64,000 nucleotides of DNA. Source: Rhizobiaceae bacterium. GTDB lineage: Bacteria > Pseudomonadota > Alphaproteobacteria > Rhizobiales > Rhizobiaceae. Under the pieces are notes generated by a model. The model saw nothing but the letters and a program-made list of their open reading frames with translations. It did no database searches and was not told the DNA's origin. How positions within the stretch are numbered: the stretch's first letter is position 1; every line of letters begins with the position of its first letter. Below, piece after piece: positions 53,830 through 59,646 of this stretch. The DNA lies in contig JACVCH010000009.1 of the NCBI GenBank assembly GCA_016742175.1, forward strand, positions 1 to 64,000, in the 5' to 3' direction. Made by a program: the position numbers and the translations under genes.

Positions 53830-55158
53830 CTACTCCGCCGCTTCCAGTGCCCGCGCCTCGGGCACCCCCGCCGGCTTCGGTCCGCCATAGGCCCAGTCGA
53901 GCAGCGCCACCGTATGCACGATCGGCAGGCTCGACCCCGACGCGATCTGCGTCATGCAGCCGATATTACCGGTCGCGACGAGATCGGCACCCGTCGCCTC
54001 GATGTTCGCCACCTTGCGGTCTCGCAGCTTGGCCGAAATCTCCGGCTGCAGAATGTTGTAAGTCCCCGCCGACCCGCAGCACAGATGCCCCTCGCGCGGC
54101 TCGCGCACCGTGAACCCCGCGCCCTGCAAAAGCATCTTCGGCAGGCTCGTGATCTTCTGTCCATGCTGCATCGAACAGGCCGAATGATAGGCGACGGCCA
54201 ACCCCGGCCGCATAGCCGGCTCCGGCAGGTCCAGCCCGGCCAGATACTCCGTCACGTCCTTCGCCAGCCCCGACACCCGCGCTGCCTTTTCCGCATAGGC
54301 CGGATCGAGCCGCAGCATGAAGCCGTAATCCTTGATCGTCGTCCCGCAGCCCGACGCCGTGATGACGATCGCATCGAGCCCGCCCTTGTCGATCTCGCGC
54401 ATCCACGCATCGACATTCGCCCGCGCAAAATCGAGCGCCTGTTCTTCGCGCCCCATGTGATGCGTCAGCGCCCCGCAACACCCTTCGCCGGCCGGCACCA
54501 CCACCTCGACACCGAGCCGCGTCAACAGCCGCACCGTCGCCTCGTTGATGCCCGGATCGAGCACCGACTGCGCGCATCCGGTCAGGATCGCCACGCGCCC
54601 ACGCTTTGGCGCCTCGGCAGCATGCACCGCCGGCCGCGCCACATCCGAAGCCGCCGGCACGCTCCTCGGCGCCAGTTCCAGCATCGCGGCAATCGGCTTC
54701 AGCCCCGGCACGGCGCGGAACAACCCCGCAAAGGCCCGCCCGATCCCCGCCAGCTTGAGGCTCGCGCGCATCCGGTCCGGATAGGGCAGGGTGACCGCAA
54801 GCAGCCCGCGCACCAGCCGGTCCAACAGCGGCCGTCGATACGTCTTCTCGATATGCGCGCGCGCATGGTCGACGAGGTGCATGTAATGCACGCCCGACGG
54901 GCAGGTCGTCATGCAGGAGAGGCACGACAGGCACCGGTCGATATGCGTCACGACCGTCTCGTCGGCCGGCCGGTAGTTCTCCAGCATGTCCTTGATCAGG
55001 TAGATGCGCCCGCGCGGACTGTCGAGCTCGTTGCCGAGCGTCACATAGGTCGGACAGGTCGCGGTGCAGAACCCGCAATGCACGCAGGTCCGAAGAATCT
55101 TCTCGGACTCCGCCACATGCGGATCGGCAAGCTGCGCGAGGGAGAAATTCGTCTGCAT
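53830..55158 (-). CDS. glcF: Glycolate oxidase iron-sulphur subunit
   Basis: A 442-residue subunit with two [4Fe-4S] motifs (CVHCGFCTATCP near 25 and CLSCLSCMTTCP near 75) and two CCG domains with GCCGALTHHMG and LCCGSAGTYNIL. It passes electrons from the flavin subunits GlcD/GlcE to the quinone pool. Its ATG overlaps the glcE stop by one base. Last gene of the glcD-(DUF559)-glcE-glcF operon. Confidence 0.95.
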   Translation of the reverse strand: MQTNFSLAQLADPHVAESEKILRTCVHCGFCTATCPTYVTLGNELDSPRGRIYLIKDMLENYRPADETVVTHIDRCLSCLSCMTTCPSGVHYMHLVDHARAHIEKTYRRPLLDRLVRGLLAVTLPYPDRMRASLKLAGIGRAFAGLFRAVPGLKPIAAMLELAPRSVPAASDVARPAVHAAEAPKRGRVAILTGCAQSVLDPGINEATVRLLTRLGVEVVVPAGEGCCGALTHHMGREEQALDFARANVDAWMREIDKGGLDAIVITASGCGTTIKDYGFMLRLDPAYAEKAARVSGLAKDVTEYLAGLDLPEPAMRPGLAVAYHSACSMQHGQKITSLPKMLLQGAGFTVREPREGHLCCGSAGTYNILQPEISAKLRDRKVANIEATGADLVATGNIGCMTQIASGSSLPIVHTVALLDWAYGGPKPAGVPEARALEAAE

Positions 55159-56360
55159 CAGCCCATCCTGCCCGGATTGAGAATTCCCTTGGGGTCGAAC
55201 TGATCTTTCAGCCGCCGCGCCAAGGCGCCCAGCGCCCCCGCCTGCGGCTGGAACACCTGTGTCGCCGCGCGCACCGGCCCGCTCGCGCGCACCAGCGTCG
55301 CGTGCCCGCCGCCGAAATGCGCGATCAGCCCCCGCAGCCCTTCGGCATCCGGCTCGGCTTCCATGCGCGCCCAGATCAGCCCGCCCTGCCAGTCGTAGAA
55401 AACGTCCGCGCCGGCATGGAGCCGCAATTCGGCGACCATCTTCCACCCCTGGCTCGGCGCCATCGAAATCCGCCAGATCGGCCGGCTGGTGCCGTCGGCA
55501 TAGGGCAGGCAATCGCGGATTTCGCGCCACACCTGTCGCGACTGCCCCTCCTCCAGAACCTCGATCGTGCCCTGCGCGGCAAGCAGCCCGGTCAGCGTCG
55601 CGAGCCGATAGTCGACCGAGGGCCCGAAGCCTTCGAGCCGCAGCAGCGTCGACGCCGGCCCCTTCAGCGCGCCGTCGAGCACGCGCCCCGTAACGCTCGC
55701 CGGCAGATGCGCGGCGGACGAAACCTCCGCGCTCGATCCCATCGCCGCCGCCATCGCAAAGGCCGCCGGCCCGTCGTCGAGCCCGCGAATGACGAACGTC
55801 TTCTCTGTCTCCGCCGCCGGCAGCACCTTGAAGGTGAGGTCGGTGACGACGGCCAGCGTGCCCCACGAGCCCGCGAGCCCCTTGGAAAGGTCGTAGCCGG
55901 TGACGTTCTTGACCACCCGCCCGCCGGACTTGAACGCCTCGCCGCGCCCCGAAACCGCATGAACGCCCAGAATATGATCCCGCGCCGCGCCCGATTTCAG
56001 CCTTCGCGGACCGGACAGATTAGCCGCCAGCGCCCCACCCACCGTGCCGCGCCCCGGCTCGGTCCCGAGCAGCGGCCCGTAGTCCATCGGCTCGAACGCA
56101 AACTCCTGCCGATGCGCCTTCAACAGCGCCTCGATCTCCGCGATCGGCGTCCCCGCCCGCGCCGAAAGCACCAGTTCCTCCGACTCGTAGAGCGTCACGC
56201 CCGTCAGCCCGGAAAGGTCGACCGCATGCTCCGTCTGCGCCGGCCGCCCGATCCCCCGCTTCGACCCATGCCCGAGGATTTCGAGCGGCGTCTCCTCGGA
56301 GACAGCCCATTGCACGACATCGAGCGTTTCCGCAGCGGAGGAGGGGGTGAATGTGGTCAT
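55158..56360 (-). CDS. glcE: Glycolate oxidase FAD-binding subunit
   Basis: A 400-residue FAD_binding_4 protein: LEILGHGSKRGIGRPAQTEH, GPLLGTEPGRGTVGGALAAN and the VVKNVTGYDLSKGLAGSWGTLA segment typical of GlcE. It works with GlcD and GlcF in oxidising glycolate to glyoxylate. The SD before the ATG at 56360 is weak, and the gene is separated from glcD by a ~730-base insert of repeats and a DUF559 gene, although it should be coupled to it. Confidence 0.93.
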   Translation of the reverse strand: MTTFTPSSAAETLDVVQWAVSEETPLEILGHGSKRGIGRPAQTEHAVDLSGLTGVTLYESEELVLSARAGTPIAEIEALLKAHRQEFAFEPMDYGPLLGTEPGRGTVGGALAANLSGPRRLKSGAARDHILGVHAVSGRGEAFKSGGRVVKNVTGYDLSKGLAGSWGTLAVVTDLTFKVLPAAETEKTFVIRGLDDGPAAFAMAAAMGSSAEVSSAAHLPASVTGRVLDGALKGPASTLLRLEGFGPSVDYRLATLTGLLAAQGTIEVLEEGQSRQVWREIRDCLPYADGTSRPIWRISMAPSQGWKMVAELRLHAGADVFYDWQGGLIWARMEAEPDAEGLRGLIAHFGGGHATLVRASGPVRAATQVFQPQAGALGALARRLKDQFDPKGILNPGRMG

Positions 56361-56394
56361 GAGCGGACCCCCGCGTAGGTCGGTCGACGATGCG

Positions 56395-56455
56395 CCCCCT
56401 CTCCGTCTCGGGCTTCGCCCGAGCCACCTCTCCCCCGCAAGGCGGGGGCGAGGAA
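56395..56455 (+). repeat. Palindromic repeat, family 3 (copy A)
   Basis: Starts CCCCCTCTCCGTCTCGGGCT and contains two hairpins, CTCGGGC-TTC-GCCCGAG and TCCCCCGC-AAG-GCGGGGGCGA. It is in the same orientation as copy C at 57001-57061, and the two flank the DUF559 gene. Confidence 0.85.
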
Positions 56456-56490
56456 GGCTGCCGCGACGCCGCCGCCATTCCAGCCAGGGT

Positions 56491-56547
56491 TTCCTCGCCC
56501 CCAACGGGGGAGAGGTGGCTCGGGCGCAGCCCGAGACGGAGAGGGGG
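56491..56547 (-). repeat. Palindromic repeat, family 3 (copy B, inverted)
   Basis: The reverse complement of copy A with small changes (TTCCTCGCCCCCAACGGGGG start, AGACGGAGAGGGGG end), 35 bases from it. Copies A and B together form a large inverted repeat. Confidence 0.85.
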
Positions 56548-56598
56548 CTGCAACCTCCCCGAAACCCACGACCTCAATCCATCTCGATCCAGCGGAAC

Positions 56599-57087
56599 TC
56601 ACGTCCGCACCGCCCGCACGTATCGAACCTCGTGATTGTCCATTTCCTCAAGTCGCCCCTCGACCGCCGCCAATATCGTTTCGCACACGCTCGCCCGCTG
56701 CTTCAGCACGTCCAAATTCCAGAACCGCAACACCGAATACCCTTTCGCCTGCATGAACCGGTCCCGCCGCCTGTCATGGTCGGAATCGGCATGCTGGCTG
56801 CCGTCGACCTCGACGATCAGCCGGACGCTCCGGCAGGCGAAATCGGCGAAATACGGCCCGCACGGCATCTGGCGAACGAATTTGTGCCCGCCGAGCTTCT
56901 TCGCCTTCAACTCGGTCCAAAGCATCGCTTCGGCGATATTGTCGCCCTGCCGCAAATCCCGCGCTCGCGCTATCGAGGTCGCCGCGCGGCGCGCGGAGGT
57001 CCCCCTCTCCGTCTCGGGCTTCGCCCGAGCCACCTCTCCCCCGCTATGCAGGGGCGAGGAACCCTGATCCTGCAAGGTCCCGCCCAT
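56599..57087 (-). CDS. DUF559 endonuclease-like protein fused at its N terminus to repeat sequence
   Basis: A 162-residue protein. Residues ~40-155 are a DUF559 domain, a Vsr/PD-(D/E)XK-like nuclease fold: ARDLRQGDNIAEAMLWTELK, KLGGHKFVRQMPCGPYFADF, LIVEVDGSQH with the acidic residues, and GYSVLRFWNLDVL. The ATG at 57087 is supported by GAGG five bases upstream and overlaps the glcD stop by one base. The first ~30 residues (SPLHSGGEVARAKPETERG) are the translation of repeat copy C, so the natural start may lie further in. No function has been established for the family. Confidence 0.75.
   Translation of the reverse strand: MGGTLQDQGSSPLHSGGEVARAKPETERGTSARRAATSIARARDLRQGDNIAEAMLWTELKAKKLGGHKFVRQMPCGPYFADFACRSVRLIVEVDGSQHADSDHDRRRDRFMQAKGYSVLRFWNLDVLKQRASVCETILAAVEGRLEEMDNHEVRYVRAVRT
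57001..57061 (+). repeat. Palindromic repeat, family 3 (copy C)
   Basis: Nearly identical to copy A over ~58 bases (CCCCCTCTCCGTCTCGGGCT start, GGGGCGAGGAA end). It lies inside the 5' part of the DUF559 reading frame. Confidence 0.85.
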
Positions 57088-58583
57088 CAAAACCTCGGAA
57101 TATCCGGAAACGCCACCTGACCACGGCTGATATGCATCCGGCCCATTTCCGCACATCGATGCAACTGCGGAAACACCTTCCCCGGGTTGAGCAGATGCTC
57201 CGGATCGAACGCGCATTTCACCCGGATCTGCTGGTTGAGATCGATCTCGGTGAACATCTCGGGCATCAAATCGCGCTTCTCCACCCCCACCCCATGCTCA
57301 CCGGTCAGCACCCCGCCGACCTCGACGCACAGCCGCAAGATGTCCGAGCCGAACGCCTCGGCGCGGTCGAGTTCGCCCGGCTTGTTGGCATCGTACAGGA
57401 TCAGCGGATGCAGGTTCCCGTCACCGGCATGAAACACGTTGGCGACGTCCAGCCCGTATTTCACCGAGAGTTCGCGCATCCGCGCCAGCACGGTCGGCAG
57501 TTCCTTGCGCGGGATCGTGCCGTCCATGCAGTAATAGTCGGGCGAGATGCGCCCCACGGCCGGGAACGCCGCCTTGCGGCCCGCCCAGAAGACCGCGCGC
57601 TCGGCGTCGGAGGTCGAAATCCGGCTCGTCGTCGCGCCATTCTGCGCCGCCAGTCGCTCCACCTCGCCGATGAGGTGATCGATCTCCGCCACCGGCCCGT
57701 CGAGTTCGACGATCAGCAGCGCCTCGACGTCGAGCGGGTAGCCGGCATGGACGAACGCTTCGGCGGCGTGGATCGCCGGCCGGTCCATCATCTCCATTCC
57801 GCCGGGAATAATGCCCGCGCCGATGATGTCGGCGACGCACTGGCCCGCCTGTTCGGAGGAGGGGAAGCCGACCAGCATCGCCCGCGCGGCCTCCGGCTTC
57901 TGCAAAATGCGCACCGTCACTTCGGTGACGACGCCGAGCAGCCCTTCGGAGCCCGTCATCAGGCCGAGCAGGTCGTAGCCTTCCGCGTCGAGATGCTTGC
58001 CGCCGAGGCGGATCACTTCGCCGTCGATCAGCACCATTTCGAGGCCCAGCACGTTGTTCGCCGTCAGCCCGTATTTGAGGCAGTGCACGCCGCCCGAATT
58101 CTCCGCGACATTGCCGCCGATCGAGCACGCGATCTGCGAGGAGGGGTCCGGCGCGTAGTAGAACCCTTCCTCCTCGACGGCCTTGGTGATGCCGAGATTG
58201 GTCACGCCCGGCTGCGCGGTCACGGTGCGGTTGGGAAAGTCGATGTCGAGGATGCGGTTGAACCGGCTCATGACGAGCAGCACGGCATCGGCGAGCGGCA
58301 GCGCGCCGCCCGAAAGCGAGGTGCCCGAACCGCGCGGCACGACGCGGATGTTGCGCTCGTTGCAATATTTCAGGATGCGCGAAACCTGCGCCGTCGTCTC
58401 CGGCAGCACCACGACCAGCGGCAACTGGCGATAAGCCGTCAGCCCGTCGCTCTCGAAGGCGCGCATGGCGTGCTCGGCCTCCACCACGCCTTCGCCCGGC
58501 ACGATGATGCGCATGTCGGCGACGATTTCGGCGCGCCGCGACAAGGTCGCCTGGTCGGCGGCCGGCATGACGGGTCCTGACAT
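57087..58583 (-). CDS. glcD: Glycolate oxidase subunit GlcD (FAD-linked)
   Basis: A 498-residue oxidase: FAD_binding_4 domain with VVPRGSGTSLSGGALPL, VTAQPGVTNLGI, GGNVAENSGGVHCLKYG and GYDLLGLMTGSEGLLGVVTE, and a C-terminal FAD-oxidase domain with FHAGDGNLHPLI and GVLTGEHGVGVEKRDLMP. It oxidises glycolate (or D-lactate-type 2-hydroxy acids) with GlcE and GlcF. The SD GGGGAGGAG is strong. It is 118 bases from the divergent lutA. Confidence 0.95.
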   Translation of the reverse strand: MSGPVMPAADQATLSRRAEIVADMRIIVPGEGVVEAEHAMRAFESDGLTAYRQLPLVVVLPETTAQVSRILKYCNERNIRVVPRGSGTSLSGGALPLADAVLLVMSRFNRILDIDFPNRTVTAQPGVTNLGITKAVEEEGFYYAPDPSSQIACSIGGNVAENSGGVHCLKYGLTANNVLGLEMVLIDGEVIRLGGKHLDAEGYDLLGLMTGSEGLLGVVTEVTVRILQKPEAARAMLVGFPSSEQAGQCVADIIGAGIIPGGMEMMDRPAIHAAEAFVHAGYPLDVEALLIVELDGPVAEIDHLIGEVERLAAQNGATTSRISTSDAERAVFWAGRKAAFPAVGRISPDYYCMDGTIPRKELPTVLARMRELSVKYGLDVANVFHAGDGNLHPLILYDANKPGELDRAEAFGSDILRLCVEVGGVLTGEHGVGVEKRDLMPEMFTEIDLNQQIRVKCAFDPEHLLNPGKVFPQLHRCAEMGRMHISRGQVAFPDIPRF

Positions 58584-59496: not shown

Positions 59497-59646
59497 GCCC
59501 CCCTCTGGCCTGCCGGCCATCTCCCCCGCAGGTGGGGAGATTAGTCTCGCCATCGACACCGCGTGATCTCCCCCCTCGCGGGGGGTCCGAAGGACGGGCC
59601 GAGACCCGTGGCTCGGGCCAGGGCGCCCGGCAGGGCAGAGGGGGGC
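59497..59646. repeat. 150-bp MITE-like element with 20-bp terminal inverted repeats
   Basis: GCCCCCCTCTGGCCTGCCGG at 59497-59516 and its reverse complement at 59627-59646 match at 19 of 20 positions. Internal hairpins (ATCTCCCC..GGGGAGAT, and another GATCTCCCCCC/GGGGGGTCC) and no coding potential. No clear target duplication. It sits between lutA and lutB. Confidence 0.75.

Follow-up and report, generated by a model that had tools for sequence, protein, structure and literature searches.

The DUF559 nuclease gene between glcD and glcE in the 64,000-nucleotide stretch of DNA analysed here (the window) is enclosed by palindromic repeats, and similar palindromes enclose many DUF559 genes of other genomes, where the type of repeat mostly goes with the nuclease clade rather than with the host genome. 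The pairing of nuclease and palindrome is established at the level of sequence comparison. The association, the geometry of the repeats and their co-variation with the nuclease make it very likely that DUF559 and its repeats form a functional pair. The gene and the surrounding palindromes are probably one two-part selfish module, in which the nuclease would recognise, cut and spread the repeats; that DUF559 drives their spread is, on balance, the best explanation of the data.

In the window three cousin palindromes (A, B and C) and the DUF559 gene part glcD from glcE, with coordinates and identities that agree with the preliminary description of this DNA. The features are as follows.

glcE, 55158..56360, minus strand; downstream operon neighbour, start at 56360
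Inserted module, 56361..57086, no strand assigned; from the glcD stop to the glcE start, missing in genome G001 (8-nt gap)
Doublet A-spacer-B, 56395..56548, no strand assigned; layout and spacer type as in the dispersed copies
Repeat A, about 56395-56460, plus strand; half of the doublet, adjoins glcE
Repeat B, about 56491-56548, minus strand; half of the doublet, with its 'box' end CCCCCTCTCC towards the DUF559 gene
DUF559 nuclease gene, 56599..57087, minus strand; 162 aa, assigned by Pfam match, conserved residues and fold
Repeat C, about 57001-57066, plus strand; single half on the glcD side, within the 5' coding part of DUF559, box end towards the nuclease core
glcD (glycolate oxidase subunit), 57087..58583, minus strand; upstream operon neighbour

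Repeat C (57001-57061) shares 95% identity with A (56395-56455) over 61 nt, inverted B (56491-56547) 89%. The inverted arms reach 98% complementarity both for A/B (44 nt) and for B/C (43 nt). A and B are the halves of one inverted doublet with a 35-nt gap, whereas C, across the nuclease gene from them, is a lone half. The glcD stop (57087-57089) shares one base with the DUF559 ATG at 57087, as TGATG; the identical overlap joins the glcE stop to the glcF ATG at 55156-55160. Because repeat C codes for about residues 9-29, the N terminus of the window DUF559 is translated repeat, as had been proposed. The wider suggestion that repeat-derived N termini are common in DUF559 was not borne out: many of the genes have only about 10-25 in-frame residues ahead of the core, and the orthologue in G004 lacks repeat C. 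The latter has the same start codon as the window gene, an in-frame difference of 57 nt and still a short stretch resembling the repeat edge. Insertion of C into an already resident DUF559 gene was considered at first; given the stretch that remains in G004, loss of C there is equally likely. A comparison of the repeat with Rfam gave 11 matches, none of which reached the gathering score, and those to microRNAs are chance hairpins. A second palindromic doublet, of L002-type, lies at 59497-59646 of the window between a CCG-domain gene and a LUD-domain gene; its type matches the repeats of the DUF559 gene G000:C1:53834.

The gene glcD was sought in 61 genomes; the stretch downstream of it was examined at a single locus in each of 30 genomes (5 of the same genus, 25 of other genera). 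DUF559 lies between glcD and glcE in G000 (the window genome) and in G004 of the same genus; in G002 it follows glcD, and the contig stops inside repeat B, before any glcE. In G001 of the same genus the junction is empty, with an 8-nt gap TTTTGATCATCACATG, so that DUF559 in glcDE is not a property of all relatives. G003, also of the genus, carries a different ORF at this place (191 aa, helix-turn-helix match). The idea that the overlap at 57087 preserves the former glcD/glcE junction needs a small correction, since the empty junction of G001 is this gap and not a one-base overlap; the exact TGATG overlap of glcD and glcE occurs in G032, which belongs to another genus.

Among the loci from other genera, 19 of 25 have no insert, glcD and glcE being spaced by about -6 to 105 nt, and the remaining six hold inserts of about 650-720 nt. 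The insert of G036 resembles a MazE/AbrB-like and PIN pair, both Pfam matches being just under the cut-offs; those of G011 and G034 look like such a pair by eye, and G024, G026 and G031 carry Uma2 inserts. The glcD-glcE junction is apparently a recurrent insertion site within the operon (L009, L010, L013, L014, L023, L024, L026). Nucleotide identity of glcD to that of G000 is 0.951 in G002, 0.920 in G004, 0.900 in G001 and 0.858 in G003, and the relations of the species within the genus are taken from these values alone. As G001 falls outside the three carriers by glcD identity, one gain explains the distribution of DUF559, which is consistent with a single module having entered the junction in the ancestor of three species.

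The window protein matches DUF559 (PF04480) with 116.3 bits against a gathering cut-off of 20.6 (Pfam E 7.7e-34). Residues E14, D43, E54, D56 and H60 are invariant in 42 aligned DUF559 cores (E, D, E-x-D, H), a pattern that fits an active nuclease of the kind which we take to be PD-(D/E)XK / Vsr. The core spans about residues 40-142. In the AlphaFold2 model (mean pLDDT 72.9) the core is confident, and pLDDT falls under 50 in nearly all of residues 1-45, a stretch that repeat C partly encodes. The best fold match in the PDB is 3hrl, a solved DUF559-like protein (Foldseek E 6e-7); the homing endonuclease I-Bth0305I (3r3p) matches with Foldseek E 2e-3, a TM-score to the target of 0.76 and a profile E of 5.6e-4, and Vsr (1vsr) with Foldseek E 0.026 and a TM-score to the target of 0.56. 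DUF559 has no transposase or integrase domain, which counts against the reading that the nuclease spreads the repeats. No methylase was found among the five neighbouring proteins scanned at the window locus. Assignment to a defence system was rejected, the PADLOC matches being marginal (E 0.00099 and 0.01) and to parts of very long models; weak sequence matches in the PDB to cholera and heat-labile toxin B chains (E 0.17 and worse) are due to chance. In the literature YcjD is classed, in the part of the source used here, among the PD-(D/E)XK nucleases (PMC1189080). For the Caulobacter DUF559 protein VsrA, the corresponding part of a recent report proposes a Vsr-like repair enzyme behind the DNA damage in a methylase mutant (PMC12907096); this mismatch-repair proposal counts against a selfish module.

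A total of 76 DUF559 matches was obtained in 35 of 61 genomes, and 73 loci were analysed, oriented on the nuclease core (left out were G007:C1:1519575, G033:C1448 and a contig-edge fragment in G038). Six 8-mers characteristic of the repeats reach 8.2 per kb in the 200 nt ahead of the core, 6.6 per kb in the 200 nt behind it, and 1.4-1.6 per kb at a distance of 200-400 nt; beyond 400 nt, about 193 kb hold 13 of them (0.07 per kb; bins 0 to 0.40), so that motif density is about 100-fold higher within 200 nt of the 73 genes than beyond 400 nt. The control consisted of 30 loci of Uma2, a small accessory nuclease family, among the matches listed in the same genome set. Motifs within 400 nt were found at 48 of 73 DUF559 loci, flanking the gene on both sides at 30 of them, and at 3 of 30 Uma2 loci, always on one side only; in the genomes sampled for both families the figures are 22 of 31 vs 3 of 30. 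Some loci had already been viewed when the motifs (six 8-mers and six box 9-mers) were picked; a test for inverted arms of at least 14 nt, which needs no motif, was passed by 60 of 73 DUF559 and 5 of 30 Uma2 loci.

A further set comprised the best 80 of 551 DUF559 loci from genome contigs. Most are from Alphaproteobacteria; beta- and gammaproteobacteria account for some, and metagenome-assembled genomes labelled Desulfobacteraceae, Syntrophaceae, Chloroflexi and Phycisphaeraceae for a few. In these best 80 the fraction in inverted arms falls from 0.14-0.15 within 200 nt to 0.008-0.018 beyond 400 nt, and the inverted-arm test was passed near the gene at 59 of 80 loci vs 9 of 80 at 1000-1400 nt. 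Repeats of this layout thus flank DUF559 far more often than the controls, as had been anticipated. Against the association count 13 of the 73 and 21 of the 80 loci, which stay below the inverted-repeat threshold nearby. Five of 32 DUF559 records from a plasmid collection were chosen with their flanks still unseen and then inspected by eye. In Sinorhizobium meliloti, Azospirillum, a cyanobacterium and Deinococcus, palindromes lie on either side of the gene; the Escherichia coli record has BoxC-like repeats only downstream of its DUF559 gene ycjD and counts against.

The repeat unit consists of a 'box' and one or more hairpins. Over 153 loci the nearest box is turned towards the DUF559 gene in 79 of 92 cases upstream of it and in 70 of 80 downstream; in dispersed doublets the boxes form the outer ends. 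For co-variation two loci (L097, L117) were dropped, leaving 151, of which 149 have repeat segments; the limits of these were set from inverted arms and motifs, and some coding sequence may be included. Repeats were called similar at 40 bits or more, and pairs were drawn strictly from different sites in different genomes. Close nuclease cores have similar repeats in 121 of 194 such pairs, and with rising core distance the count is 138 of 702, 188 of 3681 and 117 of 6004. Within one genome repeats are similar in 4 of 58 pairs with distant nucleases and in 3 of 7 closer pairs. A repeat is nearer to that of the closest nuclease elsewhere in 39 cases and to that of another DUF559 gene of its own genome in 17, with one tie; where nuclease kinship is clear the comparison gives 34 for nuclease and 5 for genome. 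The Mantel correlation of nuclease and repeat distances is r 0.30 (p 0.001). Each DUF559 clade tends to have its own palindrome of box and hairpin, and a random placement of the repeats relative to DUF559, which the preliminary description had named as the contrary outcome, does not agree with repeats that both flank and co-vary with the nuclease.

Away from the nuclease gene the window repeat is abundant. The A-type query at E<=0.001 gave at least 46 matches in G000 (4.3 Mb), at least 27 in G002 and at least 11 in G004; with 46 matches in a genome at this E-value the similarity of the repeats is not due to chance. The large counts are minimum values, since 40 of 108 candidates were scored in G000 and at most 40 per genome, and they mix two families because the query also catches the related L004-type. 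In G001 and G003 of the same genus, where all candidates were scored, A-type matches number zero, so that the three of five genus genomes with the glcD-linked nuclease are exactly those with the A family.

For the other families the queries L100/L078 and L002/L001 each joined two types, which were split by query coordinates among the matches listed. The joined-query totals for L100-type are 69 in G001, 77 in G002 and 30 in G004, all of which have the L100-type nuclease; up to 10 L100-type copies in G000, which has no matching nuclease, count against the rule. G003 has no L100-type copy, its three joined-query matches being of L078-type. The latter occurs in the genus only in G003, with two copies at its DUF559 gene and one elsewhere, a hint that DUF559 genes may reach repeat-free genomes carrying their repeat along. 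L002-type copies are many in the carriers G000 and G002 and few in G001 and G004. The clearest exception is G003, where about 70 L002-type copies were found and no L002-type DUF559 was detected, which counts against the pairing; these copies may have survived a loss of the nuclease, or a nuclease may have escaped detection. L001-type copies number, among the matches listed, seven in G000 and two in G004, both carriers, and three in G002, which is without a matching nuclease and counts against. The 25-cell presence test gives p 3e-4, with cells that are not independent because the counts are rounded and the genomes related.

Across the 61 genomes DUF559 is accessory, being present in 35. The hairpin TCTCCC-N2-14-GGGAGA has a median count of 39 in the 35 DUF559-positive vs 2 in the 26 negative genomes, with a Spearman correlation between count and DUF559 of 0.72, and 0.66 given genome size. 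On the other side stand four positive genomes with 0-3 hairpins and five of the 26 negative genomes with at least 15 (G015 59, G041 46, G040 21, G037 19, G027 18). These five may carry another nuclease or relics.

The dispersed copies differ between close relatives. Of 22 repeat sites of G000 sought in G001, 21 were found, and none held a repeat. Fifteen A/L004-type sites were viewed: 11 are plain doublets and 4 have extra halves (L049, L056, L059, L063). No clear target-site duplication was seen at the empty-site comparisons, and the insertions carry 0-45 nt of extra sequence; such imprecise junctions without clean target duplication count against a selfish module. The L060 copy is missing from G001, G002 and G004, which have one common empty sequence there. 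The L064 copy is present in G000 and G002 and missing in G004 and G001. At L061 (G000 C21, about 46.6 kb) an A/L004-type doublet in G000 corresponds to an L100-type one in G002 and G004, where one repeat type seems to have replaced another. From the species differences at L060, L064 and L061 it follows that repeat gains continued after the species split. The L064 copies of G000 and G002 have the same site and outer ends and differ in spacer and inner stem, which suggests exchange between copies. Two further differences from G001 are a 507-bp stretch at L040 (G000 C31, about 41 kb), by appearance a small accessory module, and a 151-nt insertion at L058 (G000 C13, about 99 kb) that resembles another kind of repeat element.

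The course of events that we consider most likely is as follows. DUF559 would recognise its own palindrome, probably folded or single-stranded during replication or repair, and would cut at it or beside it. Repair of the break would then place copies of the palindromes, and now and then one of the nuclease gene, at further intergenic positions; we infer such cutting of the folded palindrome and copying by repair. Non-autonomous inverted doublets of the same palindrome would in this way scatter through the genome. In the window lineage the module may have arrived between glcD and glcE in a common ancestor of three species of the genus, after which its repeat family would have spread.

Four other explanations were weighed against a nuclease that acts on its repeats. 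DUF559 could be mobile by other means and land in pre-existing palindromes without acting on them, as the repeats are common intergenic landing sites and the part of a study of ISPpu9 used here describes IS insertion into REPs (PMC8450116). Against this, distant DUF559 genes of one genome share repeats in 4 of 58 pairs, related ones at different sites of different genomes in 121 of 194. The box faces the gene on both sides at most loci, and the A family is missing from the congeners without the glcD-linked nuclease, so that we consider such landing unlikely. To a similarly small degree we would credit palindromes that serve as portable homology, with recombination moving the enclosed gene, a generic accident of replication or repair spreading the repeats and DUF559 as a passenger. 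Imprecise junctions, the lack of target duplication, the different repeat types held by L061 in different species and the internally different L064 copies agree with this. A passenger role is hard to reconcile with Uma2 genes that are not bracketed, and with the listed G000 matches (at least 46), among which no gene-size interval other than DUF559 separates neighbouring copies less than 2 kb apart.

Both remaining explanations are given still less weight. The Vsr-like fold and the part of the Caulobacter VsrA study cited above (PMC12907096) would suit a housekeeping nuclease for mismatch repair of the VSP type, with hairpins that serve in cis as terminators or in regulation. The many dispersed copies far from any DUF559 gene, the repeat abundance that tracks nuclease presence, the accessory distribution (35 of 61 genomes) and the PIT/BoxC elements, which in the cited part of their description lack promoter and terminator activity (PMC4666352), make a housekeeping role very improbable. 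Hardly more can be said for classical MITEs moved by another, unseen transposase, with DUF559 as the cargo of one element. The doublets are MITE-like in having terminal inverted repeats, but the Y1 transposase (PF01797), the family searched, was detected in none of the five draft genomes of the genus and in 5 of 14 control genomes, and among the listed G000 matches the A-type copies enclose no further gene-size interval. On the same search RAYT enzymes, which the preliminary description had brought in as movers of REP palindromes in gammaproteobacteria, are rejected as movers here, these five genomes having no match.

A nuclease that acts on its cognate palindromes is best read as a system that would work like REPIN-RAYT by analogy, with an unrelated nuclease of the Vsr/homing type. 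In REP/REPIN-RAYT systems, too, palindromes flank the enzyme gene, enzyme clade and repeat type co-vary, and non-autonomous inverted doublets are scattered in intergenic DNA; the enzyme there is an HUH Y1 transposase, whereas it is a PD-(D/E)XK nuclease here, and Y1 was not found in the five genus genomes. Dispersed inverted doublets and the co-occurrence of a family with its enzyme are likewise found here, with the exceptions of L002-type in G003, L001-type in G002, L100-type in G000 and the five hairpin-rich DUF559-negative genomes. Palindromic elements of Rickettsia are translated in frame inside genes, as is repeat C in DUF559 (window case only); we know of no nuclease link for them. EDxHD / Vsr-like homing endonucleases such as I-Bth0305I (3r3p) share the fold and are small selfish nuclease genes; unlike in these, no intron or intein was seen, and many dispersed palindromes occur instead of one homing site. 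Vsr and Caulobacter VsrA share the fold, and VsrA, in the part of its description used, has the same Pfam domain (PMC12907096), whereas DUF559 of the window type is a multi-copy accessory gene between palindromes with no methylase among the five scanned neighbours. In the open-licence literature, searched in titles and the starts of abstracts, no paper among the matches listed tied DUF559, Vsr or ycjD to such repeats, and the letters of the repeat led only to unrelated papers among the matches listed.

The BoxC, PIT or triplex-motif (TM) repeats are a further relative. According to the parts of a survey drawn on here, they have been known since the 1990s and were counted in more than 260 genomes; strain MG1655 has 23 copies with five inverted pairs, the sites vary between strains, and intrastrand triplex folding is reported for E. 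coli oligonucleotides (PMC4666352). The same parts state that genes for mobility have never been seen near the copies of E. coli, and they tie no enzyme to the repeats (PMC4666352). The window repeats share with them the order of C-rich stem, loop, G-rich stem, short loop and mirror-like G-rich box, the wide intergenic distribution and the occurrence of some copies as inverted pairs. In family A of the window the box CCCCCTCTCC mirrors the stem CCTCTCCCCC, but the two are set apart by an additional hairpin of about 20 nt that is not part of the TM layout, so that the family misses the strict triplex pattern, CCCTCNCCC N3-6 GGGNGAGGG N3 GGGNGAGGG. In a number of DUF559 clades the palindrome does fit the intrastrand-triplex pattern: with at most 2 mismatches it occurs within 400 nt of 34 of 153 DUF559 loci (10 of 153 exact) vs 0 of 30 Uma2 loci, and 54 matches lie near DUF559 vs 3 beyond 500 nt. 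DUF559 is thus the best candidate so far for the enzyme behind the BoxC-type repeat family. The balance tips slightly towards the larger claim that it is their long-missing mobilising enzyme, a lone Vsr-type PD-(D/E)XK nuclease which, with no transposase or integrase, would spread its cognate doublets, the two co-diversifying across phyla. If true, a function would be found for both the nuclease family and the BoxC-like repeats, and REPIN-like systems, until now based on HUH transposases, would gain a new enzyme class. Many intergenic 'junk' palindromes and odd translated repeats at protein ends could then be footprints of one system.

The E. coli DUF559 gene ycjD lies between sapF and fabI, and the repeat beside it is, by map position, presumably TM no. 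9. The letters common to TM nos. 9, 16 and 19, as printed in the part of the survey used (PMC4666352), are found 167 nt after ycjD in strain WG5. With a query from the ycjD locus, 60 of 5393 matching records were compared, two small ones being dropped; the median number of repeat-like places is 20 (12-31) in 36 chromosomes with ycjD vs 12 (1-21) in 22 without it, a comparison that lends weak support because ycjD is structured by phylogroup in E. coli, as the part of the source used here describes (PMC12817139). The inverted repeat just upstream of ycjD (L300) is A/T-rich and differs in kind from the BoxC-type repeats on the downstream side.
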